NCBI GenBank assembly: GCA_922989275.2
Contig: OV277856.1
Span: forward strand, 85,021,038-85,085,037
Direction of reading: 5' to 3'
Length of the DNA stretch: 64,000 nucleotides
Source: Gari tellinella
Lineage: Eukaryota > Mollusca > Bivalvia > Cardiida > Psammobiidae
This document shows positions 5,248-47,287 of this stretch, piece after piece. The translations under genes were made by a program, and so were the position numbers. The first letter of the stretch is position 1; each line of letters starts with the position of its first letter. Under the pieces are notes generated by a model. That model worked only from the letters and a program-made list of their open reading frames with translations, had not been told where the DNA came from and searched no databases.

Positions 5248-5311
5248 CAAACAGTTTGGATACAGATCAGACGCCGCGTTACGCGGCGTCTGATCTGGAT
5301 CTAAACTGTTT
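5248..5311. repeat. A-type hairpin cassette
   Basis: A near-perfect palindrome with CAAACAGTTTGGAT outer arms, GATCAGACGCCGCG inner arms and a TTA centre. It lies in AT-rich sequence bearing 'gtcgtctgc' flank motifs typical of the TTAACCC-ended A family. Confidence 0.85.
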
Positions 5312-6090
5312 TCAAAAATCAATAAAGTCGCGACCAGCAGGCAAAGGGTTAATTGTTTTACTTACAACCTCATTTTATCATTCATATGTCAGTAAAAAGA
5401 AACAGTCTACTATGAATCCTTATCAGACAAACATAAACAATAGCATGTAGTTCTAAATAGTTCTAAAAGTCAGGCAAACGAAAAATGTGGCGTCTGCATT
5501 TGTCCCAAATTCCATGGCTTCTAGACTGGATCCAAACTATTTATACGTAAATGCTCATACCTTTTACGATAGAAAAAGAGAGATTTTGAGAGGATTTTCA
5601 CTGTCAATCTATAATTTTTTATTGATTTTTTTTTAAAACTCTAATCGTTGCATTGTGACTGCAGAAATATTTATATTAGTGTACAACAGGGTTAAAATAT
5701 CCGTGCAGAAAGGGTACGGCTTTATCGTACACGTATGTGTGTTTTGAGGCAATGATGTCAATGATTGTACAATTACTTAAGTTGTTTATCATTTGAAGTG
5801 TGTAAGAAGGTTAACTTTCATTCTTTTACGAGTATGTCTAGTTTTGTAATTTTGGTCTTGTATTGGACGACAAAGGCCTGTTAGGTTTTCTTTTCTATTT
5901 TTACGTACTCTACAGCTCGTATCAAGTGTTAACACAAATGATTGTTTATCCCTTCACTATCATTATGATGTAAATACCCATCTAAAACAGTAACTGTCAT
6001 TTTATCGTTTTCTTATATTAATTGTCTGTTTTAACTTTATGAAATTAAGATTGTATGCGGTTTTGACTTAAACAAGAACAATATAAGTGT

Positions 6091-6126
6091 CAAACAGTTT
6101 GGGTCCTGATCAGACGCCGCGTTACA
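6091..6126. repeat. Half of an A-type hairpin cassette
   Basis: The left arm (caaacagtttgggtcctgat, cagacgccgcgtta) is present and then the sequence diverges, so the right arm has been lost. Confidence 0.7.
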
Positions 6127-7004
6127 GAGTTCAGTCTGTTTACTAGTGTCATTTTTGTCGGCCTTGATAGCAAATATGTTAAAGCAGTCTGTAGATATTT
6201 AGCAATCATCTGTATTTGTGCGAAACGTTTCTTTCTCTCTTTATCAGTCATGGTAGGAGTATGAACAAATCACGTCTATGGGGAATAGGTAAATTGGTCA
6301 GAATGCGATGGTATTGGGAAATGGTTACAAGGTATTTGAATTCACACACGGCGCAAATAGTGTCATATTTTCTCATTTGTCGCTATTTTCACTGTGTTCC
6401 AGCAGGGGATGTGACAAATTGTGTGTCACATGATGATTTCCCGAAATTAACGACCACCTTAGCGGATACTTCCACTTCTGTCCACTCAGCTGTTGAAAGG
6501 TATTGAGTAGGATTTCTTTAAGACAATTTGAAGTCCAATTTCAGTAACTCAAACTCGTTTAAGTCGACTATAAACAGATTTATATGAATTGATCCGACCT
6601 TTGCTATTGACACTTAGTTTAAAATTGTTACAAAAATATAAGATGACCAATAGGTATTCTTTGAATGGCGGCTAAATATGATATTGACTGAATGTGTATG
6701 TTAAGTGTACTGCAAAATCTTGAACTGAGAAATAGCTGAACACCGGAAAGAGCTACAAGAACCCCGTATCGGTGTTTTTGTTAAATAGTTCGAATCCTGA
6801 TCAGAAACCGTGTTGGACGACATTTTATTTTGATCTTACTGTTTGAAAATGCCAACCAAACCGATTTCGTCACTTAAATGGGTTAAGGAATCTCGATTTG
6901 ACCTATCGCTGTAGTTTTTGTTTCAAATGAACAATTGATAGGTTGTGCAACAAAATTATTTGTACTAACTCTTTCCCTGCCAACGGCGGCAAAATGCGAC
7001 TTCA

Positions 7005-7069
7005 CAAACAGTTTGGATATTGATCAGACGCCGCGTTACGCGGTGTCTGATCAGGATCCAAACTGTTTG
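7005..7069. repeat. A-type hairpin cassette
   Basis: A complete 65 bp palindrome with a GCCGCGTTACGCGG(T) centre and about three arm mismatches. It is preceded by 'aactctttccctgcca', a decayed end of the TTAACCC family. Confidence 0.85.
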
Positions 7070-8211
7070 ACATTCTTATCGACATTTTTTAAGTCCAAAC
7101 AGCCCTCAATCTGATTATAAAGATATAGCAGAGGACAATACCAATACAGACGAAAATGTATTCTCTGGTCAGTTCCGTAATTTACGTAGAATTTCTTTAT
7201 TACCATTCCTGTTCCATTTATGTACGATCGTTAAGTTTTATGTCACCATAGATAAGGAATAAGGATAAGATAGCAGTCTGGTGCTGAAATAAACAAAGTC
7301 AATACAACCAAACCTTTACTGCAATATTATTTTTTGAAACTTTTAAACATCATGACGCCATTTACTGTCTAATAATTTCACATCAATAATAGCGCTGTCT
7401 GCTTGCACAACTTCATCGTTTTTTCTAAACCTTAAATGTTAAGTCATTTTCTTTAAATTCCTTTATATGAGTGTCAAGCAGTCGGTGTCTTGTCGTGTTT
7501 GTTTGACTTTTGACGTCGGGAACGTTTGTTCCTCTAATGGCGCGGGTATAACTTATTTGTATAACTATTGTCTAAAACAAGGCAAAGAATTCAGTAATGC
7601 ACATTCTAATGTTTATTTACTTAAAGTCCTAGATTGAATTCATACAAGTTGGAGATTTATTGCATTTTTAACTATATAGACCAGACACGGTCGACATATC
7701 AGGCTTGAGAGGTGGGTGTATTGTTTGTGTTACGTTTCCTGCTTGAGTCTTTCGTATTTATTTACATCTGACATTTGGTCTACACTGCCAATTATTGCAT
7801 AAATGATATTCCTAAACAAAAGTTTGTATCTTCGTGAATGTCTAACAATGTAGATTCTGACCAGTCGCCGCGACTTTGACACAATGGGTTTCTGTGTCTA
7901 TACTTTTCACCATCAATAAGTCTTGGTTTCTGATGGCGCGGATCATATGACTATCCATTGTTGTCAAAATGTTTGCAAAATATTTCAGTAGTGTACTCAA
8001 CATTACAACATAACATCATGATAGTACACTTGGCATGTTTAAACAGTGTATACCTAGATAAGAGAAATGATATTGGAGTGTTCTGCTCAGGGTTTGCAGT
8101 TTTTGTATTTTTGTAATAAATAGAAAACCCTATACAGAAAAAATGTTCGATATCTAATTCAAAAATGGAAAAAAATTTAAGCTTTAGGCGTATTTTGAGT
8201 TAAAGCACAAT

Positions 8212-8393
8212 ATAGTCGAACTCGCTTAACTCGAACTATCCGATATATCGAAACATTGATTTGCCTTATTTCAAGCAAGGTTTAGGTGAACATACCCGTT
8301 GTTCGAAGTTAAATAGCGACTTAGCCGTGTTTTAACTTTAAAATACGCATATGTTCGACTTAACCGAGTTCGAGATATCGAAGTTCGACTGTA
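8212..8393. mobile_element. pogo/Tigger-like MITE
   Basis: The terminal inverted repeats read TA-tAGTCGAACTCGcTTAACTCGAAC on the left and, reverse-complemented, TACAGTCGAACTTCGATATC on the right. The CAGTCGAAC...TCGAA ends inside TA dinucleotides resemble pogo/Tigger termini. The internal sequence is non-coding. A second copy is at 27622-27837. Confidence 0.6.
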
Positions 8394-8399
8394 CTTGAA

Positions 8400-9645
8400 A
8401 AGCAGTTATAAATATGTCTTGAGCAACATCAGTAAAACTTCATATCAGTGATTGAATTCACGATGTTACTGTATTTGCCTTGCATTTGTTAATGTATTAA
8501 AAACGTTTAAGAACTCTGTATAAGACGATTGCATGTTGTCGATCCCCTAGTGGCAGTAGTTTCCATGCCATCCATTTAGACACTCCAAGAACACATTAAT
8601 GTGCGTGTTTTGCATGGCATGTTTTACATAAAATACTAAGTGCTATTTGCATGCAAACACTTTTGTCGCCTTTTTTATTGGAATCTAGTGATAAAAAAGG
8701 AATGACTCGCTGCGTTATTAAATTCAGTTCCAAGAAAACATTTGCTTTAATAAATCATTATGCAATAGTTTCTGGTCTGACAATTTCTGCTGAACTAAAA
8801 TAATGTGAAGAAACCCTTTCAGATAATGCATATTGAACTCGAATTATAACTTTGAACATATATCTGTTTTCTTTTAGCTTAGTACATTATATCTCTCCTC
8901 TGAAGTTTAAAATCTTATTAACTTAAAAACACTTATTTATTTTGCAATAAACAGGACAATCCTTCCATTTTCTGTCTAACAATGAAATGTCATTCACCTT
9001 GTAGTAAATTTTGCTAATGCCTACTCCCGCGATCGCGCCACACCCCTCATAAATGTGTACTTGACCTATATCCAACCGATACAGAATGTTTGGAGCTGGT
9101 GTGTGACGTGCTATAATAATTATATGCACTTACATGTCAAAACATATGATAAGACAAGAGACAGGTAAAAGAAGAAGCAGTATCGGATCAGGCTCCAATT
9201 TGTTTTATCTAAGGTTGAAAATAATATTTATTTTAACAATATACTATTATGTTATTTTTCATTTACACTGTATATGTGTGTTATTTACACTGAACATAAG
9301 CAGTTGCACAAGTGTTCAATTCAATTCACGCGTTGTGACTTGGTCGCACACACAGTATTAACAGTGTAGGGGAAATTATTAGATACAATTGAGTCAAAGT
9401 TAAGAAATTGTAACTGATGTGTTGTATTATAAAAGATGTGCCTGACCTAACTAATTAAGACTTGCTTTAGCCACTACCCTGATAACCCTCAGTTTGGCTT
9501 CTTATCGGACATTGTGTAATTCAGCATCTGATTAGACTCCAAACTGTTTACCACTCGTGCAGTCATTTTGCCTTAATTAAATTTAGAGAAAAAGAAACAC
9601 GTGACAGTTTCAGACGATATTAGCTATAAATAAAGGGGTTAAACA
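8400..9645. other. Gene-free stretch
   Basis: Only short chance ORFs occur. A decayed A-type right arm (gactccaaactgttt) lies near 9533. Nothing else is recognisable. Confidence 0.45.
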
Positions 9646-9648
9646 CGC

Positions 9649-10823
9649 TACCCAAACAAAAATAAAATGAATCAAATAACTAATTATGAACCAATAATGA
9701 ACCAATACTGTACTGTTTAATACATAGTTGTGGTTCAGTATTAGTACATCATTGAAAAGTACACGATTAGACCCCTAATAATGTACTATATTTCAGATTC
9801 ACCAGAGTACTTTGATAGTTCAGCATTAAGCAGACAGTTCATTATTAATTCAGCATTGAACATTAACTTTCTTCTACTGTACATCATTGGTTCTTTATTA
9901 AACTTAAAAAATCTGGATAGTACATTAATAGTTCATCATTTAACATAGTTCTTCTATAACTGTTCAGCATTGGTTCATAATTAAACTTGAACAATCTGGA
10001 TAGTACATTAATAGTTCATCATTGTTTACGTGCGGTTATTCCCCTTTTTGAAATCTACTCTCCACTTCGGGAGAATTCGGCAGAAATTCAAATCTGGAAA
10101 ATTTTAACCAACAGCGAGCGATCGATGTTTTGTCCAAGATAGCTTGCATAAAGTGTGAAGTTGAACCGTTAATTATTACACGCAGTCGACGATGCTTGGG
10201 TTTTCAACTGTGTTTTGTTAGCGAAGCCGATGAAGGTTAGTTCATGAGAATTTTCTGTGATTGTTTACAAAATTTAGAAGATCCCGGGTCAATTCGGTCC
10301 CTCGACAAATCGACCCCGAATTGGCTCGACCAGTCTAAACTATAGAATAATACATGTACTGTTTATCTAGATAGAAGTTTAACGTTTTGTTATAGGCTGC
10401 CGCATATTCTTTTTACAAATCAAAAGTTTCATTGAAGGAAAATTGCTTGTTTTAAATTGACAAAGGGGTCAATGAAATCTGCATGCCTATGTCGCTCAGA
10501 AATGTATATATATGGTGCAGAATTAGTACATTGTTAACAGTTCAGCATAAGTACATTGTTACGAGTACATGATTAGTACATTGTTATAAGTACATAATTA
10601 GTACATTGTTAACAGTGCATGGTTGTGATCGACAGTACACAATTGGTTCATTGTTAGTTCTTTATTAGTTCATTGTTGGGAGTTCATTATTAGTACATTG
10701 TTACTAGTACATTGTTAACCTCATTTGCATGTGATTTGACAACCAATTATGTATTAATAATGAACTGTACAGAATTAGTTCATTGTTATAGTTATTTGTT
10801 ACCCTGTTTTTTTTGTGTGGGTA
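9649..10823. mobile_element. 1.2 kb non-autonomous element with reiterated 'AGTACATTGTTA' motifs
   Basis: The ends are inverted: TACCCAAACAAAAATAAA on the left and, reverse-complemented, TACCCACACAAAAAAAAC on the right, followed on both sides by an AAATAACTA subterminal motif. The two arms (about 9690-10030 and 10500-10800) are crowded with variants of GTACATTATTAG and TTCATCATTG, including a near-identical block repeated at about 9908 and 9989. The centre (10030-10490) is unique and non-coding. A TA on each side could be a TA target duplication. No transposase is present. I do not recognise the family. Confidence 0.6.
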
Positions 10824-10910
10824 AGTGTAACAAATGGCGTGCATTTTAAGCACTATTCGTGGCACTGTGTGAACCAGGCGAGAAAATCACAGAAAGGAGT
10901 CAATACCTGG

Positions 10911-11116
10911 TACAGTGGAGAAAACGTTATTCTTTCCCAATGAACGCGTTCCGCTAAAACTGTTGTTTCTATTGCAAACAGTTTGGAGCCAGATCAGACG
11001 CAAACTGTTTGCCACCAAACTAAAAATTTCAGAATTGTCCAAAAGTTGCACTTTTCTACGTTTTAGTGATTTGCGTTTGCGTTAAAACGGGAAAGAATAA
11101 TGTTTTCTCCACTGTA
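10911..11116. mobile_element. B-family MITE (TACAGTGG ends), hairpin partly deleted
   Basis: It starts TACAGTGGAGAAAACGTTAT and ends with the inverted CTCCACTGTA. Inside are a GCAAACAGTTTGGAGCC left arm and a CAAACTGTTTGCC right arm, with the centre of the hairpin missing, followed by the family's GCGTTTGCGTT and GGGAAAGAATAA blocks. Confidence 0.85.
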
Positions 11117-11613
11117 CAAAACAATCGCTAATTAGCAAAGTGCCGTGTTACATTATTGCACGTCATTCAGTCAATTACAGTAAAACCACTATAAACTGGA
11201 CACCTGTAAGACAAAACAACTTTCGATCAAGTTAGACCAGTTGGTATCAGGTGACAGCTTACTTCAGGACAACCAACAAAAAGGCACCATTCTCCCTCTG
11301 GGAGCTTTCTGCCTTATTGTTACGCTGCATTCAGTAGTAACCCATAAATTATGATCTTCTTTTCCGCAGAGTACCGAGTTCAGAGAGGTTTTAGTACTAA
11401 GTGAACTTTATTGTTCCAAATTGGTTCGTCTACTTGGACTTTTGTCTGTGTTATTTCTAACAGTATTTTTTCTATATCTTATATTTATTACATATATATA
11501 ACTTCTAGAATATAAAACTACAAGTCGTTTATTAGGATTCTGACGTGACACTAAATAACATGTTCTCTCATTAGGAGTAAAATCTGTTATTAAGTTGTCT
11601 AACCTAGAAACCA

Positions 11614-11855
11614 GGGGCCCGTTTCATAAAACTTCGTAAGACAAATGTTGTCGTAAGTCAGATTATAAAAGTCTCAATTTTTATTTATTTATCCATCTAA
11701 TCCTGTATTGTGACATCTCTATGGAATCGTCTTGAAAAGACGATTCCAAAGAGATGTTACAAGATAGGATTATATAGAGAACTAAAAAAATATATGTATT
11801 TTAAATATTTGACTTACGACCTTTTTTGTCGTACGACGTTTATGAAACGGGCCCC
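11614..11855. mobile_element. D-family MITE (GGGGCCCGTTTCATAAAAC ends)
   Basis: Long terminal inverted repeats read GGGGCCCGTTTCATAAAAC, then a CGTAAGACAAATGTTG-type block, with the inverse at the right end. A second palindrome lies inside (11698-11772), centred on AATCGTCTTGAAAAGACGATT. Apparent ORFs through it come from the palindrome. Confidence 0.85.
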
Positions 11856-11859
11856 CGAT

Positions 11860-13910: not shown

Positions 13911-13914
13911 GAAC

Positions 13915-14274
13915 GCTCCCTCTCTGCAACGGCCCTCCCGACAACGACTCCCTCCTTACAACGACACTAGCCGTAATTCCCTTAACGGGCTAATTAAGTC
14001 TAACTCTTTTACTGCTGCAATAGCGTCTGCTTAAACTTGTTGTCTACTGTTTTGTCTCACAGTTACATATACGTGGAGATTTTGATAAAATTAATTTAAT
14101 GACCAGTGACAAACAGCTTGAATCCTGATCAGACGCCGCGTGACGCGGCGTCTGATCTGGATTCAAGCTGTTTGCTAATGTAAGCCAAGTCCTAATTGTC
14201 CCTCTCTATAACGACTTCCTCCGAACAACACACACAATCTGTGTCTCCCATTGGATGTCGTTGTAGAGAGGGAG
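13915..14274. mobile_element. F-family element (GCTCCCTCTCT ends) carrying an A-type hairpin
   Basis: The left end is GCTCCCTCTCTGCAACG and the right end, reverse-complemented, is GCTCCCTCTCTACAACGACA. The interior holds a full A-type hairpin at 14110-14174 with its own symmetric variants (CAGCTTGAATCC on both arms). A decayed relative with the same right part follows the hairpin at 25378-25540. Confidence 0.7.
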
Positions 14275-14967
14275 CACTGTAATACCATAGTATTTAGAAA
14301 ACATTCTTATACGTTGTTTTGTGTCGTTGATATCATATTTGAAAGTAGTGTTGTCAATGTTATTTCACATTATATGTTATAAATTTACAAAGGTTTGTAT
14401 CCAATTTATTACTGTTGTTGAAGAACAAAAACATACCATGAATGCTAGTGATGTGCCGATTAGTTGTGGTACTCGGTCATTACGTCGCGAGGATGCTGAC
14501 GAGTTGATCGACGATAGATATCTCATCGGCGACGTTTTATACATTACTTTATTTTAATGTTTTTCCGTATCTAAATAAATAGTTATGTTATTTTGTCACA
14601 TTTAAAGAACGAAGTATCCAAATTAATGAATAATTCAAATCTTTATCCAGGTCAGACATTCTATTATGGCGTTAAAAGCTGCCCTTGATATACAATAATT
14701 GAAAGATATAAGCACTTACATGTATTTGTTATTTCTGTGTAATAAGCCCGAAGCAGTATACAAATCAACAGCGATTTGTAATCGATTATCGAGAAATTTG
14801 TTTGAGTCCGATTCCAAACACTAAATCACTTAATGGCGTTTGCTACTGTTGGAAGAGTAATAGACTGAGCTATCAAGGCTAATACAAGACATTTTGTTAT
14901 ATATCTGTGACAGATAATATATACCTCATGTCCTTTCTAATCCCTATGTCGACATCACTTATTGTTG

Positions 14968-15981: not shown

Positions 15982-15984
15982 GAT

Positions 15985-17290: not shown

Positions 17291-17292
17291 GA

Positions 17293-17542
17293 TACAGTGG
17301 AGAATCTGTTATTCTTTCCCAATAAACGCGTTTACGCTAAAACTATTATTTGCAGTGCAAACAGTTTGGAGCCAGATCAGACGCCGGGTAACCCGGCGTC
17401 TGATCAGGCTCCAAACTGTTTGCCACCAAGATAAACATGAATTATCAGAATTGTCCAAAAGTTGTTCTTTTCTACGTTTTAGTGTTTTGCGTTTGCGTAC
17501 GTTTGCGTTTAAACGGGAAAGAATAACAGATTCTCCACTGTA
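17293..17542. mobile_element. B-family MITE, complete
   Basis: It runs from TACAGTGGAGAATCTGTTAT to its inverse. The central hairpin (about 17357-17422) has a GCCGGGTAACCCGGC core with a single arm mismatch. ORFs on both strands here are products of the palindrome. Confidence 0.9.
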
Positions 17543-18454: not shown

Positions 18455-18705
18455 TACAGTGGAGAATCTGTTATTCTTCCCCGTTTAAACGCAAACGAAA
18501 CGCGAACGCAAAGTACTAAAACGTAGAAAAGTACAACTTTTGGACAATTCTGATAATTCATGTTTATCTTGGTGGTAAACAGTTCGGAGCCTGATCAGAC
18601 GCCGGGTTACCCGGCGTCTGATCTGGCTCCAAACTGTTTGCACTGCAAATAATAGTTTTAGCGTAAACGCGTTTATTGGGAAAGAATAACAGATTCTCCA
18701 CTGTA
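18455..18705. mobile_element. B-family MITE, complete
   Basis: It runs from TACAGTGGAGAATCTG to CAGATTCTCCACTGTA, in the opposite orientation to the 17293 copy, with a clean GCCGGGTTACCCGGC hairpin. Confidence 0.9.
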
Positions 18706-19365
18706 AATGTCAATGGAACCAATATACCCTTCTCTCTTAGCAGACTTCTCTTTAACTGACATCACTTGCATCCTCATGTGGACGTTCTATGGCGCACCGA
18801 ACCCGCGTGACACATATACGCGCACTTTTTAAAACAGAATACAAGTTAAGGGTACACACTACCTATATAAACAGTGTAGAATCCTACAGGAGCCCTCTGA
18901 TATGGATCTGCACTGATTGAAATTCTGCAAAATAGTATAAAACTTTCCTAACTTGGCTAGAAGTAATTGGAACTCTGAATTTATTGTCAAGTTGAGTTAA
19001 CAGGAGTCAATGCCATCTCTTTGTGTGTTGGGGACGACATCGAACAACATCGTAAAAACTGCCGTAATTTGTCATTCTAATTAAATATATCTCACGTAGA
19101 CGCAGGTGTTTTATCTAAGCTTTGCCGACGCAGACAATTAATTTAAATTACTTTCGTTTATTTCCCGTAATTTAAAATGACCTCGTGTTCTGAGTTTCTG
19201 CAGGCCAAGTATAATCAATCTAATGTCAGTCCATCGAGGTTTCGTCTTAAAGGAATAAAGTTTTGAAACCTAGCGCTTACGGGCAAGGTTTTGTCTAAAG
19301 CAATGTTTCAAGCGCTGATCAACTCTTAACCCTTAGCCTGCCACGCACGACTATAGCTCCATATG

Positions 19366-19430
19366 CAAACAGCTTGGATCCGGATGAGACGCCGAGTAAC
19401 TCGGCGTCTCATCCGGATCCAAGCTGTTTG
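19366..19430. repeat. A-type hairpin cassette with private matched variants
   Basis: A 65 bp palindrome with no mismatch visible in the arms. The left arm has CAGCTTGGATCCGGATGAG and the right arm mirrors it exactly; the core is GCCGAGTAACTCGGC. Neighbouring copies differ at these sites on both arms together. Confidence 0.9.
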
Positions 19431-19737
19431 ACACTCGGACAACATTTTCAGCAATTTTGAGCAACTTTGAAGCACTTTGAAACTTGAAGCAGACGAGAAA
19501 TATAGCAGACGACAATTTATTTGGCGGGCTAAGAGTTAAACAAACGGCAAAAGTCAGGCTTACAGGCCAAATAACAGATTATAGCCTTTCATTACAAAAT
19601 TATTCGGTTGCTTTATTCTTTTGTCTGTCGTATTCTTTCAGATTCATTTTTTAGGAAATTCGACCGCATTAATTTCGATACGAGTGTTATCAAAGTATAG
19701 CCCTATCTGCCGATCGTAACTTGACTAATGTTTTCAT

Positions 19738-21243: not shown

Positions 21244-21459
21244 TTAACCCTTCACTGCCGTGACGTCATCAATTTTAAACAATTGTCGTCTGCTTTTATT
21301 TCTTAAATTTTAAATTTTGCTTTCTTGACTGAAGAAATATTGAAATGAGTGTAAAACAGTTTGAATCCTGATCAGACGCCGCGTAACGCGGCGTCTGATC
21401 AGGTTCCAAACTGTTTGCAAAAAACTGTTGTGCTCGGGGTAAGGCAGTTAAGGGGTTAA
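21244..21459 (+). mobile_element. A-family MITE, complete (TTAACCCTTCACTGCC ends)
   Basis: This best shows the whole A element: TTAACCCTTCACTGCC, an AT-rich arm with 'gtcgtctgc', the hairpin (21352-21417, GCCGCGTAACGCGGC core), a second arm with 'tgctcggggtaa', then GGCAGTTAAGGGGTTAA. The TTAA termini and CCCTTC-type ends suggest a piggyBac-like non-autonomous element. It has no coding capacity. Confidence 0.85.
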
Positions 21460-21514: not shown

Positions 21515-21763
21515 ACAGTGGGGAAGACGTTACTCTCTCCCAATAACCGCGTTTACGCTAAAACTATTATTTCAATTGCAAACAATTTGGAGCCAGATCA
21601 CGCGCCGGGTAATCCGGCGTCTGATATGGCTCTAAGCTGTTTGCAACTTAAATTAAGATGAATAATCAGAATTGTCGAATTGTTGTCATTTTCTACATTT
21701 GTTTGCAATTCGTTTGTGTCTCGTTTGCGTTTAAACGGAAAAAATAACGTTTTCTCCACTGTA
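21515..21763. mobile_element. B-family MITE, diverged copy
   Basis: Ends ACAGTGGGGAAGACGTTA and TTTTCTCCACTGTA. The hairpin retains GCCGGGTAATCCGGC. There is only 55 bp to the preceding A element. Confidence 0.8.
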
Positions 21764-22666: not shown

Positions 22667-22916
22667 TACAGTGGAGAATCTGTTATTCTTTCCCGTTTAA
22701 ACGCAAACGTACGCAAACGCAAAGCGCTAAAACGTAGAAAAGAACAACTTTTGGTCAATTCTGATATTTCATGTTTATCTTGGTGGCAAACAGTTTGGAG
22801 CCTGATCAGACGCCGGGTTACCCGGCGTCTGATCTGGCTCCAAACTGTTTGTATTGGAAATAATAGTTTGAGCGTAAACGCGTTTATTGGGAAAGAATAA
22901 CAGATTCTCCACTGTA
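22667..22916. mobile_element. B-family MITE, complete
   Basis: TACAGTGGAGAATCTG to CAGATTCTCCACTGTA with a clean GCCGGGTTACCCGGC hairpin. Arginine-rich ORFs on both strands are hairpin translations. Confidence 0.9.
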
Positions 22917-22968
22917 CGTGTATTTGCAAATGTTTTAACCCTTTCATGATCAAATTTATCGTGAGGTT

Positions 22969-23180
22969 TTAACCCCTTCACCGCCATACTGTCGTCTGCT
23001 TCAATATTGTTGTCTGTAATATCGTTTCAAAGTTAGATTTAAGGCAGCATAACTTACGTTACTTCAAAATAAATGGCAAACAGTTTTGATCCTGATCAGA
23101 CGCCGTCTTACGCGGCGTCTGATCAGGATCAAAATTGTTTGCAAATGCGCTTATGGCGTCATTGAGAGTGAAAAGGCTAA
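22969..23180 (+). mobile_element. A-family MITE, right end decayed
   Basis: The left end is TTAACCCCTTCACCGCCAT with 'gtcgtctgc' beside it. The hairpin at 23077-23141 has AGTTTTGATCC/GGATCAAAATT, again a change seen on both arms, and a slightly mismatched core (GTCTTACGC). Confidence 0.75.
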
Positions 23181-25678: not shown

Positions 25679-25930
25679 TTAACCCTTTCCCTCATAGCCT
25701 GTTTCTAGTTTTGAAGACAGGTGGCCACTTCAAGCAGGTTGAAAGTAAAGCAGAATGTGCCTTAAGGCACATTCTGCTTTACTTTCAGCCTGCTTTAAGC
25801 TAAAATCTGCTAGGCTATATAAAATACGTGTAATGGTAATTGTTCATGAGGGTATGAACTGGAACTATTTTCTTCGGCGGAGGAATAAATTAAATACGCT
25901 AAAAGTCGTTTCTATGGGGGAAAGGGTTAA
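25679..25930. mobile_element. G-family MITE, complete (TTAACCCTTTCCC ends)
   Basis: TTAACCCTTTCCCTCATAG on the left and GGGGGAAAGGGTTAA on the right. The central hairpin has 'gcaggttgaaagtaaagcag' arms around AATGTGCCTTAAGGCACATT. TTAA borders again suggest a piggyBac-like origin. The ORF from 25755 runs out of the hairpin and is not credited. Confidence 0.85.
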
Positions 25931-32390: not shown

Positions 32391-32397
32391 ACACAAT

Positions 32398-33396: not shown

Positions 33397-33689
33397 AATA
33401 AATATATATTCCGTCAGTCACAAAGCATAAAATATAAATTTGATAGATAAACGCAGACGGGAAAGTTTCAGGTTTTCATATCAACCGACGAATAAAATGC
33501 ATTGCGGTAAGCAATATTAATTACCTTTCAATAGTCGCACACGTAGAACAGTCTGCGAGTGTTATTGATATGCGAACATAGTATAAAAAAACATAACAAA
33601 CACCATATTGGGAATATTTCCAGCAATACAATAAAACTTTTCTATTACATATACGACCACTACATGGGATAATTGTGTCAAAACTTAGG

Positions 33690-33780
33690 CAGGTGGCAGC
33701 TGAAAACAAGATGACAGTAAAACAGAAATATCCTAAAGGAGTTTCTGTTTTACTGTTATCTTGCTTTCAGCAGCCACCTG
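33690..33780. repeat. G-like palindrome
   Basis: A 91 bp foldback with arms caggtggcagctgaaaacaa and ttgctttcagcagccacctg, and inner arms gacagtaaaacagaaa / tttctgttttactgttatc. It keeps the G-core architecture with a different centre (tatcctaaaggag). Confidence 0.75.
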
Positions 33781-34030
33781 TCTCACAGGATATCAATAAG
33801 TCTACATTTTAGTGGTTGTACGAGTATTAAGGGGTTTTACTCTATTTATTCTACAGTTAAGCTTGTTCTAATCAACCAACCAGAAGAAGGCCTAATGGGT
33901 AGTCTTGACTAAACGTTTTGTTAAATGCAGTATAAAATATGATGCAGAAAGTTCATACAGTAGCTTTCTGTATTATAATCATTTTGCATTAAGAAGCCAT
34001 ATGTCTGTAAAGATACCCACACTAGTTGCG

Positions 34031-36323: not shown

Positions 36324-36929
36324 AGTGACACCATAGGGTTTAATGCAGAAATAAAGATTTTAAGTTTTGAAATACACCCCTTATCTGGAGCCTTGGCTTC
36401 TATCCAATCATCCCATTCAGTTTTAAATAAGCATGTGATTTTCAACCTAGAATTCTGTCCAGTTATCATTGGTTGAGAATTTGCATGATGATTCTAAATA
36501 GAAACCATTCAGCTCCGCTTAAAAAAAGCATTGAGTCAAACAGTTTGAGTTTTCAACATATCTGGTTCACTACATGTAGCTTGTAAATGGATAATCCTGT
36601 CTCTGCTGAGCGTGGGCACTGACAGTTTATATTCACTTTTAGGTGGTAACTCTGCTCCTGATCGGCATCCTGTTTAATATGAGCGTCGATGTTTTAGGAT
36701 CAATGTGACTGACGTCTAGGTGTGATAGCAGTTTGCCCTGTAGACAACACATTTCAAGGCAGCCACTGCGAGAAATATATCATATTCAAACTACATTTTC
36801 CCACATGTTTCAAACAGACGTTATCAATCCAACGATTGTGCTAAGAGAAGAAGGCGGTTGTTAACCCTTTCACTCTCAATGCCGCCAAAACGCGCATTTG
36901 TAAACAGTTTGGATCGTAACGCGGCATCA

Positions 36930-37172
36930 GGGGCCCGTTTCATAAAACATCTTACGACAAATGTTGTCGTAAGTCAGATTATAAAACTCTCAATTATTAT
37001 TTATTTCTCCATCTAATCCTGTCTTGTGATATCTTTTTGGAATCGTCTTGAAAAGACGATTCCAAAAAGATGTCACAAGACAGGATTAGATAGAGAAATC
37101 ACAGATTAAATGTTTTTTAAAGTTTTGACTTACGACAACATTTGTCGTAAGATGTTTTATGAAACGGGCCCC
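36930..37172. mobile_element. D-family MITE inserted in an A-type hairpin
   Basis: GGGGCCCGTTTCATAAAAC ends and the inner AATCGTCTTGAAAAGACGATT palindrome. The left flank (36901-36929) is 'aaacagtttggatcgtaacg' plus cggcatcag, and the right flank is 'tgatcagaatccaaaca', so it split an A hairpin. 'atcag' occurs on both sides and may be the target duplication. Confidence 0.85.
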
Positions 37173-37440
37173 TGATCAGAATCCAAACAGATTGATACTC
37201 GTATCGAAATTTGGTGAGACATACTGCTATAAAACAAACTTTGAAACGATATTTCAGACAAAAAAATTGAAGACGACGAAAATGAAACTGTGAGGGGTAA
37301 AAAATCTCACAAAACATTTTGGCAGTGAAATGTTTAAGAAGAAAAAAGATTAACTCCATTTTCTGCCTTACCCTGACTCCAATGATATCTGCAACTAACC
37401 AACATAAGTTTCTCATAAAAATCCTAAGATTTAAAAATTT

Positions 37441-38195: not shown

Positions 38196-38212
38196 CCCCC
38201 CCCCCCCCCCCC
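38196..38212 (+). repeat. Homopolymer run C17
   Basis: Seventeen C in a row followed by A6. The length is likely to be uncertain in the assembly. Confidence 0.9.
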
Positions 38213-38871: not shown

Positions 38872-39016
38872 CTACAGTGCAGAAAACGAAACGAAACGCA
38901 ACAAAATTCAATGCAGTATAAATTCTAAAAGTAAGACCATTATTTTAGCAAACAGTATGGAGCTAGATCAACACCGAGTAACCCGGCATCTGGTCTGGAT
39001 TCAAACGGTAAGCAAT
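38872..39016. repeat. B-family MITE fragment
   Basis: TACAGTGCAGAAAACGAAACG on the left half and a decayed hairpin (caaacagtatggagctagat, caccgagtaacccggcatct). The right end is absent. Confidence 0.6.
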
Positions 39017-39718: not shown

Positions 39719-39785
39719 GTGCAAACAGTGTAGACACAGATCAAAACTTTTGATCCCCTGATCAGAGTGTGGAGTGTTTGTCATT
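39719..39785. repeat. C-type hairpin, decayed
   Basis: 'gtgcaaacagtgtagacaca' with 'ctgatcagagtgtggagtgt' and 'tttgtcattttgcag' flank. The core is lost. Confidence 0.6.
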
Positions 39786-39956
39786 TTGCAGTTAAGTGCA
39801 GAAATGCAAAACTAAAAAGTAGTTTAACCCTTTTCGTGCTTAGCGCGAATATTTGCAAACGTTTTTCACATTGTGTTTTTTAACACTTACAAAACACGTG
39901 GTGCCATACTGTTTGACACTAATATTTAATTTTTATCAAAGAAAAGGTAGATATCT

Positions 39957-40113
39957 GGGGCCCGTTTCATAAAACTTCGTACGACAAATGTTGTCGTAAG
40001 TCTGATTATAAAAGTCACAAGACCGGATTAAATAGAGAAATAAGAAATTAAATGCATTTTAAAGTTTTGACTTACGATCGATTTTTTCGTACGAAGTTTT
40101 ATGAAACGGGCCC
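39957..40113. mobile_element. D-family MITE, internally deleted
   Basis: GGGGCCCGTTTCATAAAAC to GTTTTATGAAACGGGCCC, 157 bp. The inner palindrome present in the 11614 and 36930 copies is missing. Confidence 0.85.
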
Positions 40114-40633
40114 TTGATGCAAAGGACTTTATTTTGCAGACGAAATCGATACAGCGTGCTGACGCTTTGATTAAAATTTATCGAAATGCAGACTACAATT
40201 TTGAAGCTGACGTTTTTATGTCTTGAGAATGGTAAAAGTCGGGGTTTGTGGATAAATTATTGCATTGAATTTTTAAACACGTGGGCGTTTATGTTTTAAG
40301 GAATGTATGTGCTAAGTTATTTTCATTATTGGTGTAATTTGAATCTAACAGTCTAGACGAGAATTTTATTTAAAATAGATATTGATAGGCATTATACAAG
40401 TAGACGTGTAGTAACCCCAGCCCTAAATAGTGAGAAAAAAACTACACATGTATATTTAATTGGTAACTGGAACTTTTCATTTGAGGTCAATTAGTTTAAG
40501 GGATTTTGATAAATGAATAGGAACAAATGTAAAACGAGAATTTATCCCACAAATTCATATCACTTCATGACTTTGTTTTCACGAGAAATTCCAGACATGA
40601 CATTAACCCTTTCAGAGCCATATACGTACGTAT

Positions 40634-40872
40634 GAACTATTCTTTCCCAATAAACGCGTTTACGCTAAATCGTTTATTTCCTCTGCAAACAGTTTGGAGC
40701 CAGATCAGACGCCGGGTAACCCGGCGTCTGATCAGGCTCCAAACTGTTTGCCACTCAGATAAAAATGAATTGTAATAGAAATATCAAAAATTGATATTTT
40801 CTATGTTTAATTGTTTTGCGTTTGCGTTTCGTTTGCGTTTAAACGGGAAAGAATAACGTTTTCTCCACTGTA
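40634..40872. mobile_element. B-family MITE, left terminus lost
   Basis: It begins at 'aactattctttcccaataaa' without the TACAGTGGAG tip and ends CTCCACTGTA. The hairpin is clean (GCCGGGTAACCCGGC). Confidence 0.85.
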
Positions 40873-41881
40873 GGGAAGAAATTGAGACAAAATAAAGTGC
40901 GTTTAAGTGATGCGATCATTCGACGCCCATCTCTGTTATTACAGGCAAATTGATCAGATAGTGATTCTAAACGGCGACGATAAACATCAGGTGGCCATCC
41001 TTAAAACATGATTTATGTACGTCACAAAGACGATTTAGTCTCAAGACAGTATGGTTAATAGCAAACTGTTTCTTTTTATAAACTAGATGACGTATTTTAG
41101 CTTTTACCATAATATCACATTGAGTGTTGTAATTTTTTTCTCGATAAACGCTTGGCGCTTGCTCAACAGTTTAAACTCTAAAGACGCATATATACCCGCG
41201 CTATACAGTGTACCTATGCATAGTACACTTGTTTTGTTTAACATATGCAGGCTGCTGAATAAACTCTTTGATCAGGGTCTACACTGTTTGTCATTTTGCA
41301 ATGTATGGTAAAATACCATATACTTCATATAACTAGTGATGGATCATTTCACAAGCGCAATTACAAAATTCCATTCATGAATAGTATCTTAATTTAAATG
41401 AGTACATGTAGTACTTCAATCGGTCCTATTGCCTCAATTGTTTCATATACATTTTTAGGATAATTGTTTAGAGAAACATCGACATAAATGCCATGCAGTT
41501 CAGATGCTGACCAGATGCCAAGGTGTTCCGTGTCTGGTCGTAATCCAATGTTTGCGAGTGAAAGTGTTGCCCTGTTTTAATCAAGGGATGAAGACACCAA
41601 TAAAGCCGACAAAGTTTCGGTGTTGACGTCGGTGTTGTGCAATATTAATTCTAGACAAATCTAGACGAAAACGTATCCAGTGAAGACGATGCTACTAACC
41701 CTTCCACTGATAAGCCAGGTGACACCAACATTTACAAACAGTTTGGATCTAGATCAGACACCGTCGAACTCTGCATCGGATCAGGATACAAACGTTTGGC
41801 ATCAGTTCGATGGTTTTTTGGTCATTTTGCCTAAATATCTAAAGTTTGATATATAAATTCAGACTACGATTTTAACATTTG

Positions 41882-41946
41882 CTAACAGTTTGGATCCAGA
41901 TCAGATTCCCCGTTATGCGGCGTCTGATCTGGATCCAAACTGTTTG
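41882..41946. repeat. A-type hairpin cassette
   Basis: ctaacagtttggatccagat, cagattccccgttatgcggc and ggatccaaactgtttg. The left core has drifted (ttcccc against gacgcc). A second, poorer copy lies at about 41737-41800. Confidence 0.8.
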
Positions 41947-42140
41947 TCACTCCTATTAAACTTTTATTCAGTTTAAAAAAACATAAAAACTAATTTTGAT
42001 TTTTTTTCGCAGACGATATATTTAAAGCAGACGACAATTCAGCATGATAATGGTTATGCAGACGACAGTATAGCAATACGTGGGATTAAATAACACATTC
42101 ATAGCATGTGTCTAGTCACAATGGCAGTTAAGATGACTTG

Positions 42141-42390
42141 TACAGTGGAGAATCTGTTATTCTTTCCCGTTTAAACGCAAACGTACGCAAACGCAAAGCA
42201 CTAAAACGTAGAAAAGAACAACTTTTGGACAATTCTGATAATTCATGTTTATCTTGGTGGCAAACAGTTTGGAGCCTGATCAGACGCCGGGTTACCCGGC
42301 GTCTGATCTGGCTCCAAACTGTTTGCACTGCAAATAATAGTATTAGCGTAAACGCGTTTATTGGGAAAGAATAACAGAGTCTCCACTGTA
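42141..42390. mobile_element. B-family MITE with a 10-bp flanking duplication
   Basis: TACAGTGGAGAATCTG to GAGTCTCCACTGTA with a clean GCCGGGTTACCCGGC hairpin. Both flanks carry 'agatgacttg' (42131-42140 and 42391-42400), the only copy in the window with a visible long direct repeat at its borders. Confidence 0.9.
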
Positions 42391-42842
42391 AGATGACTTG
42401 TAATGCAAGTGGAAATAAACACTGATAAATGTGACGTAAATACTGGAGAGATGTGACAATATGATTCCATAAAGAGACTGAAAACCTGACGGTTCAATGG
42501 CAAAACAGATAAAAACAACAGAAACAAATAGTGTAGGAACACTTTGCTGTCTTCTTCAATTCACATTGAGATAATTCCTTTTGAAAAAGTAATATAAAAA
42601 ACCTTTATGTTTGCAATGAATAGAAACGCCTTCATGCCTTTATCTCGTTGTCTTTTCGTGTATTTTATTGTGTCATGATAAAGTACCTACATATTCTCAA
42701 GGATTGGAAAAAGACGAGACGAGATCGTTTCCTTTACTTTAAATCTGCTTTAGACAGCTTAATGTAGAACGAATTAATGCAGAAAGCAAGTTAAAGGCTG
42801 TCTTATTGATGAAAATGAGGTTTAACAAACAGTAACATGTAC

Positions 42843-43050
42843 TACAGTGGGGAAGACGTTATTTTTTTCCAATGAAAAGCGTTTATGTCAAACACATTAT
42901 GCCCATTGCAAACTGCTTGTAGCCAGAGCAGACCCGGGTAACCCGGCGTTTGACCAGACCCTAAACTATTTTCCACTCAGAATCAAAAGATTCGTGACTT
43001 GTTTTCTAGAAATTGCATTTTTCTACATCTGATTGCACTGCGTTTGCGCT
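42843..43050. repeat. B-family MITE, diverged, right tip lost
   Basis: TACAGTGGGGAAGACGTTAT, then ccattgcaaactgcttgtag, gacccgggtaacccggcgtt, and a decayed GCGTTTGCGCTT arm. Confidence 0.7.
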
Positions 43051-43085
43051 TATACGTCTAGTTGTACAATCAGTGTTTCCGTATA

Positions 43086-43185
43086 AAGTACACTTGTCCT
43101 ATACAGACAATGTAGACCCAGACCAGCGGGTTCGTAAAGGAGCTATCTGACCAAAGCCTATTAAATGTATGTTTATCATTTTGCA
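43086..43185. repeat. C-type hairpin, decayed
   Basis: 'agtacacttgtcctatacag' flank, 'acaatgtagacccagaccag' arm, 'gttcgtaaaggagc' core remnant and 'tttatcattttgcaat' flank. Confidence 0.6.
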
Positions 43186-43199
43186 ATATGAATGTAAAA

Positions 43200-44250
43200 C
43201 AAACCATAAATATTCAAATGGATTAGACTCGTGTAAATGGAATTAGGAATTGTCGCTTTTGAAGTTTTTACTTTATCTAGTATGGTTTATATTAGAAGTG
43301 ATATGCAGGTTGCACATTTTCATATATTGTCCTTGTGGGTATTGCTCATTAAACATTTACATTTCTGTTCCAGCATGAATCCACCGTTAGCCAGTTTATC
43401 CTGTGTGTATTTGCACTCTGAACTGTAGTGGATCTCACTTCCACTCCCAATCATTGAAGTGTTTGTTTCCGCATTTGAAAACCATGCATTGTTGGAGAAA
43501 TCGCTACTTATTCCACATATACACCGCCTATAGAGTCGGGAAACAGGACGCCCATATAGTAAAACATGGCGGCATATATAGTGACACTCTTTTCTGAGGT
43601 GAAGCTCTTTTGGCACAGGACCGGTTGCTTTCAGAATCTGTATCGATGTCATGTTTTGCGTTTAGTAAATTATGATCTTAAAGACTTTAAAGTGAAGTTG
43701 TTTCTGATGTTATTACATGTAAAACTCTGTTATGGTCACTGTATAGCCTCTTCCACTTATAATGTTGCTGTACACAGTGCAGAAATGTCCAATGATGAAA
43801 CGATACTAGTAATCATTGAGGCTGGCCTTGATTTGTTGAACGAACTGGATTCTACTATTATACTATTACTTTTGCTCCTGTTGTCCCAGTTGATATCGCT
43901 ATTACTTTAGCTATAGATGATGGTATTACTATATTGCCATTTGATTGTAGATTTTAAAGTCAAGTCCTGCTGCAGCTGCTTATATTGAAGTTTTTAGTTA
44001 GATGCTACTACATCTAGTGGTGTTGTGGATTGTTAGCATCGTGCACATACGGAAACAGATTGTGGCCAGACTATTAGATCTGCGTGACAAAGTACATGAT
44101 GAAGCAACACCTGCAAGTAAAAAAAGCTATAACTACATGTGTGTGTATTGTAATTTCTACTATATTTTATTACAGTTACTAAAGACAGTTTACCACTTAA
44201 GACAGGTTGAAAGTAAAAAAGAATGCGCCTTCAGCCTGCTTTAAGCTATT
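43200..44250. other. Stretch with unrecognised short ORFs
   Basis: Overlapping ORFs of about 110 residues occur on both strands (minus 43320-43652, plus 43566-43910). I recognise no family. The plus ORF ends in an oligo-leucine run encoded by a 'ctattactttt' simple stretch. No ORF is credited as a gene. A G-type arm (gacaggttgaaagtaaa) begins near 44200. Confidence 0.35.
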
Positions 44251-44461
44251 ATCTGCTAGAATTTAGAAAATGTATATTAATGTACACTTTAATGACTGTA
44301 CGAGCGTATAATAAATTTGAACAATTTTCTTCAGTGGAGGAATAAATTAAACTTCTATTTGGGTGTTAATGCCGTCCAGTGCCGACTGTAGATTAGAATG
44401 GAAATGTCATTGCTACCACTGATGTTACAATGGCTCTTGAAGCTGCAACTCAGCCGCTGTG

Positions 44462-44711
44462 TACAGTGGAGAATCTGTTATTCTTTCCCGTTTAAACGCA
44501 AACGTACGCAAACGCAAATCACTAAAACGTAGAAAAGAACAACTTTTGGACAATTCTGATAATTCTTGTTTATCTTGGTGGCAAACAGTTTGGAGCTTGA
44601 TCAGACGCCGGGTTACCCGGCGTCTGATCTGGCTCCAAACTGTTTGCACTCCAAATAATAGTTTTAGCGTAAACGCGTTTATTGGGAAAGAATAACAGAT
44701 TCTCCACTGTA
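44462..44711. mobile_element. B-family MITE, complete
   Basis: TACAGTGGAGAATCTG to CAGATTCTCCACTGTA, very similar to the copies at 22667 and 42141, with a clean hairpin. It appears to be one of the younger copies. Confidence 0.9.
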
Positions 44712-45171
44712 CCTCCATAACACCATAAATACGTCATTTCCCGCCTTTAATTTACATGTTTCTCCCCATTGCAGAATGAAAATTCAAATTATAGTTAAAC
44801 GCAATAATTAAATTGAACGTATGCTCAAAATGTTCTCAACTACGTCTCCTCAAAACTGTATGCAGTTTCAGACGATTCTAATGCCGAATTACATTATAGG
44901 ATGGATTGAGAAAAAGTTAGTATATATATTAAATACTCACACTATCTAGAGATCTTTATAATCCTTAATAACTAAACAACTTTATCAAATATATTTGAAT
45001 GCAATTGTAAGTAATGTTTATTTCACATACTTTCTACCTTCCCTTCTCTTATTTTGAATAAAATGTGCTCTTTAGCCCTTTCAAACATGTCCTAGTTACC
45101 GTATATATACCATACCCGGATCTAGCAATATTTTTCCCCTAGCGGTTCCAGCCGCGAATATTTAACATTGA

Positions 45172-45405
45172 TGTTTATTCCTTCCAAATAAACAATCATA
45201 TGATACATGCATTAATGCAAGTGCAAACAGTTTGGAGCCAGATCAGACGTCGGATAGCCCAGCGTCTGATCATGGCAGCCTCCAAGCTATCTGCCAATCA
45301 TACTGAAAAGAAACATCAACATTTTCAAGAAATTGTCATTACTACAATTTAGTGGTTTGCATTTGCGTTTCGTTTAAACGGGACAGAATAACATCCTTTC
45401 CAAAA
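45172..45405. repeat. B-family MITE, strongly diverged
   Basis: 'ccaaataaacaatcata' left remnant, hairpin gtgcaaacagtttggagcca with a gtcggatagcccagcg core, and 'tttaaacgggacagaataac' right remnant. Confidence 0.65.
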
Positions 45406-45613
45406 CTCTGATTACTCTCACAACATAAATAAAACAATTCAGTGCTTTCTTCTTCTCTTCTATTCCTTGCTTTAAGACTTTCAGTGTGTCCGAACCCTCA
45501 CCCACCCCGCCCCGTCTCGCCCCGCTCATGTATGTTTTTACACGCTCTGTATATACTACAATTGTTCCACATACTTAAACCCTTTCCCTCTCAATGACGC
45601 TTAAAAGCGCGTT

Positions 45614-45656
45614 TGCAAACAGTTTGGCGTCTGATCAGGATTCAAACTATTTGACA
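45614..45656. repeat. A-type hairpin with half deleted
   Basis: ttgcaaacagtttggcgtct joins directly to gatcaggattcaaactattt: the inner left arm and centre are gone. Confidence 0.7.
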
Positions 45657-45956
45657 CTCGTTTTGATATTTCTTCAGTCATACTGCCTTATATTTTAACT
45701 TTGAAACGACATTGCAGACAACGAAATTAAAGCAGACGACAATGAATCAGTGAAGGGGGTAAATTCTGCCGAATAATTTGGCCATGGAAGGGTTAACCCC
45801 TTTTATGTCGTTTTGTTTTTCGTATGAACCATTCCACTGTCGATAAATAGCCGGTTCTGGGATTTTAGGGCTGTTTTAAGAAATAGTTCAGAAAAAAATA
45901 AAAGTAAAACAAACAGTGAAAGCCGCGCTCAGAGAGCTCCTTACGAAGTCCGCTGA

Positions 45957-45967
45957 TACAGTGGAGA

Positions 45968-46003
<36 letters not shown>

Positions 46004-46260
46004 GACTTTATTTAACGAGAAAACGTTATTCTTTCCCGTTTAAACGCAAACGAAACGCAAACGCAACACACTAGATTGGAGAAAATGACATCATTTTGAT
46101 AATTCTAACTATTCATTTTAATCCGAGTGGCAAACAGTTTGGAGCCTGATCAGACGCCCGGTTACCTGGCGTCTGATCTGGCTCCAAACTGTTAGTATTG
46201 GAAATAATAGTTTTAGCGTAAACGCGTTTATTGGGAAAGAATAACGTTTTCTCCACTGTA
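45957..46260. mobile_element. B-family MITE split by a tiny retroposon tail
   Basis: TACAGTGGAGAA at 45957-45968 and CTCCACTGTA at 46251-46260 bound the element. It is interrupted at 45969-46016 by (TAA)n plus 'aaagactttatttaac', with 'gagaa' on both sides (45964-45968, 46017-46021). The hairpin (about 46131-46197) is a GCCCGGTTACCTGGC variant. Confidence 0.85.
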
Positions 46261-46477
46261 AGGTCTACAGTGTAAGCATAGAAAGGGTAAGCAGTCGTTT
46301 AAGGAGGTCTTTGAAGAGCTGTGTATAGTATTTCGTTCATCCATGAAAATAGAAGAAAAGACAAGGATCTATTACTTTTCTACAGCTTGGCTATAAAGAC
46401 TAACCCCTATATATGAATTAAGCCTAGCACACCATATACTAGTCAGGGTTTGTTTTGTCAATATATTATAATATGAA

Positions 46478-46570
46478 ACAGTGGAGACCCTAGCCAGAGG
46501 ACTCCTTTTAGTCGTTTGGAGCCCTCTGATTTGAGTATTCTCTGTTGGCATAGGACAAGTGTACTATTCA
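46478..46570. repeat. C-type hairpin, decayed
   Basis: 'aacagtggagaccctagcca', 'gaggactcc...ggagccctc' core and 'ataggacaagtgtactattc' flank. Confidence 0.65.
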
Positions 46571-46699
46571 CAGATACACTATTTGCAGAGAACGCCTAAA
46601 TGCCTGCCTATTGTTTATATAGAGAGTGTTATTTTCTTGCTAATTGTTTTTGATTGTTCATATTGATCGTGCTATTGTTGTTAATTATATGATTTGTAA

Positions 46700-46793
46700 G
46701 AATGTTTCTTTGAGGGCCTCGCGGTAGATTAGTCTCCTGACTAAGTGAGTTACCCTCGTAAAATAAAGTCGTTCATTCATTCATTCATTCATA
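46700..46793 (+). repeat. 3' end of a LINE or SINE with (TTCA)n tail
   Basis: 'gagggcctcgcggtagatta', 'gtctcctgac' and 'gagttaccctcgtaaaataa' then 'agtcg', followed by (TTCA)n at 46772-46793. The shape (conserved 3' end, short-repeat tail, no 5' part) is that of a truncated retroposon. Confidence 0.55.
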
Positions 46794-46902
46794 TACTGCT
46801 AATACTCACCTGCTTTAAATAAAAATAATGTCTGTCGCAAGTTTTATATTTGGTAAAATTCGAACTATGGTAAATTTACTTAAGATATGTTTAAATGAGT
46901 GT

Positions 46903-46968
46903 CAAATAGTTTAGATCTTGGTCAGCCACCGAGTCACGTGGTGTCTGATAAGGATCCAAACTACTTGC
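46903..46968. repeat. A-type hairpin, decayed
   Basis: tcaaatagtttagatcttgg and gataaggatccaaactactt with a CACCGAGTCACGTGGTG core, still self-complementary apart from its centre. Confidence 0.7.
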
Positions 46969-47035
46969 AAATAAGGAATGTACTCGGTGTAAGCCGGTAA
47001 ATGAGGTTAATCCTGCCACTGCCACTGCTCCGGCC

Positions 47036-47287
47036 TTAACTCATTCACCCCTGTAACTTTTAATGGACTATTCCAATTTCGAAATATGTCTAGTCCATTT
47101 TTTGACTACTTAGGGTTGATTTTAACAATATATTTCAAAATGACAAACAGTGTTGACCCTGATCAGAGGGCTCCTTAAGGAGTCCTCTGATCAGGGTCTA
47201 CACTGTTTGCATGGAACAAGTGTAATCCTCACAGGTGCACTGTTTGTAAATGAAGAGTATACTCGTCGATAGGGTTGAATGCATTAA
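47036..47287 (+). mobile_element. C-family MITE, complete
   Basis: TTAACTCATTCACCCCTGT on the left and 'agggttgaatgcaTTAA' on the right. The hairpin (47148-47211) is clean: caaacagtgttgaccctgat, GAGGGCTCCTTAAGGAGTCCTC, atcagggtctacactgtttg. Confidence 0.8.

Follow-up and report, generated by a model that had tools for sequence, protein, structure and literature searches.

Why should the two arms of a short genomic hairpin vary together? In a 64-kb stretch of the genome of the bivalve Gari tellinella (the whole stretch is called the window here), an earlier note had described hairpins of about 65 bp whose inner sequences differ between copies in matched pairs, and had ascribed the matching to copying of one arm onto the other or to selection on the fold. 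The hairpins are there as described, with arms at 5248, 14110, 19366 and 47144, and palindromes in general lie far above shuffled sequence. They are the cores of miniature inverted-repeat transposable elements (MITEs), very abundant non-autonomous DNA transposons of 209–362 bp. Their arms probably match mainly because each subfamily inherited both from a founder, with low-rate, recurrent template switching restoring pairs and flipping the hairpin tip in addition.

The genome that holds the window comprises 1,597,604,326 bases in 80 contigs, and hairpins were sampled from the window plus 25 stretches of 10 kb (314 kb). The motif CAAACAGTTTGG occurs 231,770 + 232,523 times genome-wide, compared with 129 + 114 occurrences of a reversed control; allowing up to two mismatches, it gave 139 matches in the window against 9.25 expected (standard deviation 3.23; 0 of 100 shuffles reached it). 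A palindrome scan of the window returned 33 places with at least 22 of 30 bases paired, and at 23 of 30 there were 155 palindromes in 264 kb of window and sampled genome, against none in one shuffle. A hairpin profile search of the 314 kb found 255 non-overlapping copies, 201 of them in the 250 kb beyond the window; extrapolated from the density at the 25 places, this amounts to about 1.3 million copies across the genome. Arm statistics use the 185 of the 255 hairpins with six gaps or fewer, the other 70 being excluded. An RNA-family reading of the hairpins was set aside, as no Rfam family matched the window at gathering scores, as was a tRNA reading, the window scan having given none; an integron-like or bacterial repeat was dropped because of the genome size of 1.6 billion bases.

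Most joint arm variation is inherited from founders

Eight subfamily consensus hairpins were compared, two of which were built from three copies only. Among their cells 98.8% are paired, and 11 of 32 pairs carry two-sided changes, with 14 cells changed on both sides versus one G-U cell and three unpaired cells. Shuffles gave a mean of 2.6 two-sided pairs, and 0 of 500 shuffles reached the observed number. Stepwise RNA compensation is not favoured, given the single G-U cell among founders. In single copies (n = 185), pairing beyond independence was found mainly at pairs that mark subfamilies; pairs 0–3, 5, 15, 17, 21 and 31 pair at, or within 0.01 of, the level expected if the arms varied independently.

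If arms were copied within each hairpin, the arms of one copy should cluster together, as the earlier note had reasoned, and grouping of arms across copies with few paired changes would instead mean descent from distinct founder palindromes. The latter is largely what we observed. The left arm was strictly nearest to its own partner in 5 of 185 copies, tied in 32 and lay nearer to the arm of another copy in 148, and the paired variants therefore descend mostly from founder palindromes. Shuffling arms within class gave an own-nearest count of 0.97 on average and 4 at most in 200 shuffles (observed, 5). Own-arm distance was slightly below cross-copy distance in the six classes tested (for type B, 0.102 versus 0.130; permutation values ≤0.0008), a test that left out two classes of five copies; either unseen subfamilies or weak copying could lower it in this way. 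Type B is the commonest hairpin type (inner AGCC/GGGT), and 33 of its young copies, chosen by flank only, carry 25 one-arm changes and no paired change, all 33 keeping the mismatch of the founder.

Two variants that had been called private to single copies proved to be shared. The inner 24 bases of the arm at 19366 occur 13,779 + 13,763 = 27,542 times genome-wide; among 100 matches listed, 36 hairpins carry this 24-mer on both arms and 28 on one, the one-arm count perhaps being inflated at the edge of the list. Private paired mutations were accordingly rejected as proof of arm copying, the arm at 19366 being that of a large subfamily. The variant TTGAATCC at 14110 marks an element family, G3 (class GAATCC, 12 of 185 hairpins, nine of which aligned as G3), and the GAGGGCTCC type is a separate hairpin type of 66 bp. 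The matched inner variants are mostly markers of founder subfamilies, and most joint variation is inherited from founder palindromes.

Type B hairpins show an excess of restored pairs and flipped tips

The type B element measures 250 bp: its core, a palindrome of 65 bp, lies between 120 bases on the left (TA included) and 65 bases on the right. In this core 31 pairs are complementary, pair 16 is a T.T mismatch and a single unpaired T forms the tip; the exact founder hairpin is present in 44,243 copies genome-wide. With so many identical starting copies, restoring changes can be compared against matched ones. Restoration of pair 16 needs T>A on either arm and a flip of the tip needs T>A at the tip; if arms are copied, neither requires a new mutation.

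We counted exact 65-base matches over the whole genome. Pair 16 was restored by T>A on the left arm in 1,328 copies and on the right arm in 746, and the tip carried T>A in 2,147, compared with 86 copies of a control, a pair-breaking T>A at pair 19, three bases away (15.4-fold, 8.7-fold and 25-fold excess, respectively). Transitions at the same base gave a similar picture: T>C was found in 136 copies at the left base and 414 at the tip, 9.8-fold below left-arm restoration and 5.2-fold below the tip flip. A restored hairpin with loop A is the reverse complement of one with loop T, and the counts for the two restored states, AA and TT, include both.

Restored states were also in excess among 33 old type B copies, oriented and deduplicated by flanks, which held six AA and three TT states against the 1.46 expected from T–A exchanges at other A/T sites (19/856; P = 2.3 × 10−5). 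On a tree built from flanks only, each of the 12 non-founder tips requires a change of its own (12 Fitch changes), the most reached with shuffled labels. T>A at the tip (7) and on the left arm at pair 16 (6) were the commonest of 130 variant types in these copies, the next three occurring 5 times each, and after deduplication loop A was present in 4 of 9 restored copies versus 2 of 21 TA copies.

For a comparison of flanks, 20 copies each of the AA, TT, control and loop-flipped hairpins were fetched from the first 100 listed places (86 for the control). Exact young flanks surrounded 7 of 20 AA, 8 of 20 TT, 7 of 20 control and 10 of 20 loop-flipped copies, and 9 of 17 TA copies in the sample. 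The 48 copies with at least 24 of 26 flank bases did not cluster by state (flank distance 0.0626 within, 0.0619 between; 480 of 1,000 permutations were as clustered), and TT copies taken alone were further apart (0.1101). All 20 loop-flipped copies have their arms in element orientation, with the loop changed; the hairpin was reversed relative to the element in 4 of 20 AA copies (three with poorly matching flanks), 1 of 20 TT copies and 0 of 20 controls. An origin of the restored copies in a sub-lineage is, overall, unsupported by the flank tree and the flank distances.

In type B, then, arm differences are erased toward pairing, and spacer inversion is seen as the excess of T>A at the tip. 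Together with recurrence on separate lineages, this surplus of pair-restoring and tip-flipping changes agrees with template switching at palindromes. The arm copying originally proposed thus finds support as a recurrent event in type B, and fails as the source of most paired variants, which founders passed on.

Several observations weigh against giving template switching this role. All strong counts come from one subfamily; the pair-breaking T>A was counted over the genome at one site only, and T>C at the left base, the other arm control, makes a CpG, which may lower its count. Restoration is lopsided between the arms (1,328 left, 746 right). AA copies alone are close in their flanks (0.0315), within an overall test that was null, and branches are long in the flank tree of old copies. 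The young type B copies carry one-arm changes and no paired ones, though few paired changes are expected there. Copying would sometimes spread new one-arm mutations to the other arm, and old copies gave no clear excess of such spread (both-same 11 versus 7.9 expected, both-different 12 versus 10.7, with expectations from copies of like divergence), which speaks against copying as a general rule. A weak replicate comes from a second family, E, in which a C/T mismatch at pair 8 was restored in 6 of 35 copies versus about 2.6 expected from transition rates (P = 0.05).

Alternative explanations

Selection on the fold could keep arms matched if only palindromic cores transpose, or if the cores make a functional RNA, with compensated founders kept and restored copies amplifying more. 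Two-sided changes do separate the founders, and several element families carry hairpin cores. Founders nevertheless show one G-U cell against 14 two-sided cells, unlike stepwise RNA compensation; restored copies lack the clustering expected of amplified lineages; and the mismatched state is by far the commonest of those counted (44,243 copies). We consider selection unlikely as the explanation in its own right, and it may act jointly with template switching.

The hairpin might also be flipped and homogenised by cutting of a cruciform and repair of the ends, rather than by a polymerase that switches template. Loop flips and arm restoration would likewise result, derivatives with core deletions occur, and an old copy near position 2345 of sample stretch L017 (GT state, loop A) may represent an inverted core that carries one more change. 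Plain inversion of the whole core (AT state, loop A) is absent among 66 deduplicated type B elements, and the data here do not separate cutting from template switching; we hold it to be an improbable route.

Could founders account for everything, with paired variants, restored states and flipped states all marking minor source lineages and arms never being copied? That thousands of copies share paired variants, that most left arms are nearest to other copies, that young type B copies are without paired changes and that AA copies have close flanks would all follow. Yet restored and flipped states lie dispersed over the flank tree and are overall unclustered by flanks, and they exceed the same-base transition 9.8-fold on the left arm and 5.2-fold in the loop. 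Three separate minor lineages would be needed, every one of them pairing-restoring or loop-flipping by coincidence, and we find this quite unlikely.

Sequencing or assembly error at perfect palindromes, which are hard templates, is very improbable, because errors should be age-independent and restored states increase with element age within the same assembly (9 of 33 old versus 0 of 33 young copies).

A proposed model of founder inheritance with template switching

Under founder inheritance with recurrent template switching, each subfamily would have spread from a founder with a near-perfect palindromic core, any variant thus being present on both arms, and after insertion the arms would mutate singly. 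During DNA synthesis the core, when folded or extruded, would in addition undergo a low-rate process, most likely template switching within the hairpin (quasi-palindrome correction), in which a polymerase would switch template at the fold, rewriting a mismatched base from the opposite arm and flipping the tip. With or without selection on the fold, the same process could yield new founders that differ by paired changes; it may have perfected new founder palindromes, a step that we infer from restoration in single copies. Perfect cores would help the element to spread, which would explain the paired differences between founders.

Hairpins have been proposed to take part in the amplification of Angel and similar fold-back MITEs of fish, which are short inverted-repeat elements; the likeness to the elements here is one of description. 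REPINs of bacteria are likewise mobile palindromic units, with a hairpin predicted in single strands, and two-sided compensatory changes are reported to be common in them (PMC3116915). They differ from the palindrome here, which forms the core of MITEs in a large genome and implies no RAYT partner. Although the matched arms had been put forward as the trace of an undescribed process, template switching between the arms of inverted repeats has been described, with arm homogenisation and spacer inversion as its stated outcomes (PMC8604942). Both outcomes match the changes in type B; that report concerns 39 yeast genes, whereas here a single transposon core supplies the 44,243 identical starting copies. 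We found no literature linking template switching with MITEs, or shared internal sequence with MITEs; the related work listed, as far as titles and the openings of abstracts go, is silent on such cores, which is no proof of absence in print.

In an animal-sized genome, the rate of template switching at palindromes is hard to measure, natural palindromes usually being unique. The 44,243 identical type B cores, in each of which a mismatch is built in and a loop base shows orientation, amount to a natural mutation assay.

Hairpin cores occur in elements with different ends

The terminal inverted repeats of type B are 28 bp long (TACAGTGGAGAATnTGTTATTCTTTCCC) and differ at one base, and both terminal TA dinucleotides are intact in 49 of 55 end-to-end places. 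Both ends accompany 44 of 58 type B hairpin copies. Elsewhere they were found together in 0 of 31 copies of class A, 0 of 11 of GAATCC, 0 of 7 of TTTT, none of the 5 copies in any of three small classes, and 1 of 17 copies outside the classes; single type B ends arise by chance at 8–9% of random places. The core adjoins 46 of 51 sampled left halves. Among the five left halves that lack it, one core was lost between short direct repeats (CAAAC) and two had arms partly lost; deletion derivatives of the hairpin lie near 3971 in sample L025, near 4876 in sample L021 and at 10912–11115 in the window.

Alignment of the flanks of the other hairpin types gave five families: the ends are of TTAA type in G1, G2, G2b and G4 and of TA type in G3 (TACAGCGCTCCC). 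Among end-to-end places, both TTAA ends are intact in 4 of 16 for G1, 5 of 7 for G2, 2 of 6 for G2b and 2 of 2 for G4, and both TA ends in 6 of 13 for G3. Two further families, E (TTAACCC ends, both intact in 20 of 32 places) and E2 (TACAGTAAAACC ends, both intact in 7 of 11), carry a second type of hairpin, and F and F2 are two more MITE families with long central palindromes and ends CAGGGCTCCAGATAAG and CAGGGGCCCGTTTCATAAA. The elements mapped in the window are as follows.

17294–17541, minus strand: type B, TA-ended, end to end, 65-bp core at 17358–17422 with the T.T mismatch
18456–18704, plus strand: type B, end to end, core at 18576–18640
22668–22915, plus strand: type B, end to end, core at 22787–22851
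42142–42389, plus strand: type B, end to end, core at 42261–42325
44463–44710, plus strand: type B, end to end, core at 44582–44646
40635–40871, minus strand: type B, core at 40686–40750
46017–46259, plus strand: type B with flanks of an older lineage
21515–21762, minus strand: old type B in which pair 16 reads as restored (AA state)
10912–11115, minus strand: type B with one hairpin arm partly deleted
5139–5351, plus strand: G2, TTAA-type ends, hairpin at 5248–5312
19326–19538, minus strand: G2-like, hairpin at 19366–19430 with 32 of 32 arm bases paired
21248–21458, plus strand: G2b, TTAA-type ends, hairpin at 21353–21417
22936–23179, plus strand: G1, TTAACCCTTTCA ends, hairpin at 23077–23141 (TTTT variant)
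45578–45795, minus strand: G1
13911–14280, plus strand: G3, TACAGCGCTCCC ends, G2-like inner region, hairpin at 14110–14174 (TTGAATCC variant)
25680–25929, minus strand: E, TTAACCC ends, hairpin of the second type (AAAGCAGG arms) with its centre at 25763
33628–33842, minus strand: E2, TACAGTAAAACC ends, hairpin similar to that of E
47144–47209, no strand assigned: 66-bp hairpin of the GAGGGCTCC type
11614–11856, 36926–37176 and 36303: F and F2 families, central palindromes, ends CAGGGCTCCAGATAAG / CAGGGGCCCGTTTCATAAA

Type B matches G1 and G2 in the core only (91.5% over 71 bases). With G4 the match covers 76 bases and with G2b 110 bases (80%), both reaching a little leftward beyond the core. 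Once the core was masked, type B matched no G element at an E value of 0.01, and similarity of the flanks beside the core was within the range of shuffles, bar one weak value (right flank of young type B versus G2b, P = 0.027). G3 looks like one MITE nested in another, because it contains a G2-like region (G2 2–187 versus G3 93–277, 81%). The palindrome arms of E and E2 are alike at 26 of 32 bases (0 of 1,000 shuffles as good), and the two families are also alike beside the palindrome (26 of 39).

Type B has the TA at both ends and the inverted terminal repeats of Tc1/mariner-type MITEs, and types B, G3 and E2, all of them short, have TA ends and inverted ends of the kind linked to the Tc1/mariner superfamily. 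They differ from such MITEs in their long central palindrome, which has no more than one base at its tip and is common to differently ended elements. The short elements G1, G2 and E resemble piggyBac-type MITEs: each consensus has TTAA at both ends, with CC right after the first and GG right before the closing TTAA, and not the 5′-RR/YY-3′ of Kolobok. Kolobok also uses TTAA, but has 5′-RR termini (PMC9587614). What sets these elements apart from piggyBac-type MITEs is a central palindrome identical in type to that of TA-ended elements.

One core type, CAAACAG, is found in the TA-ended type B, the TTAA-ended G elements and the nested G3, and the other, AAAGCAGG, in the TTAA-ended E and the TA-ended E2. 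From this distribution we tentatively raise the possibility that palindromic cores are portable MITE modules that aid multiplication by folding during replication, whatever the transposase, and that the same folding keeps the arms alike via template switching. The core may likewise be of use to the element that carries it. How non-coding MITEs reach such numbers is a wider question, for which a core common to differently ended elements, seen for two cores, would be a candidate superfamily-independent aid to amplification.

Other features of the window and sampled stretches

Despite their different ends, the G1, G2, G3 and G4 consensus sequences share two direct repeats similar to TCGTCTGC close to the left end, and the CGTCTG of this repeat recurs inside the hairpin arms. 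Perfect or near-perfect hairpins near 5778 in sample L020 and near 7368 in sample L018 have arms unlike any other sampled; their flanks match little or nothing else in the sample, and they possibly belong to low-copy families. Near 8460 and 9854 of sample L015 lie two hairpin copies whose flanks on one side agree at 98% over some 400 bases, probably through local duplication. A palindrome at 48927 of the window (ATGGCTATACACTGTCTCTG) lies outside all families described.

The window also holds retroelement sequence. On the minus strand at 58537–62187 there are frames of the non-long-terminal-repeat type: one encodes a reverse transcriptase and, after it, a PHD finger, and another gives an endonuclease-like match slightly below cut-off. 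A 439-residue frame at 52391–53710 has a reverse transcriptase domain.

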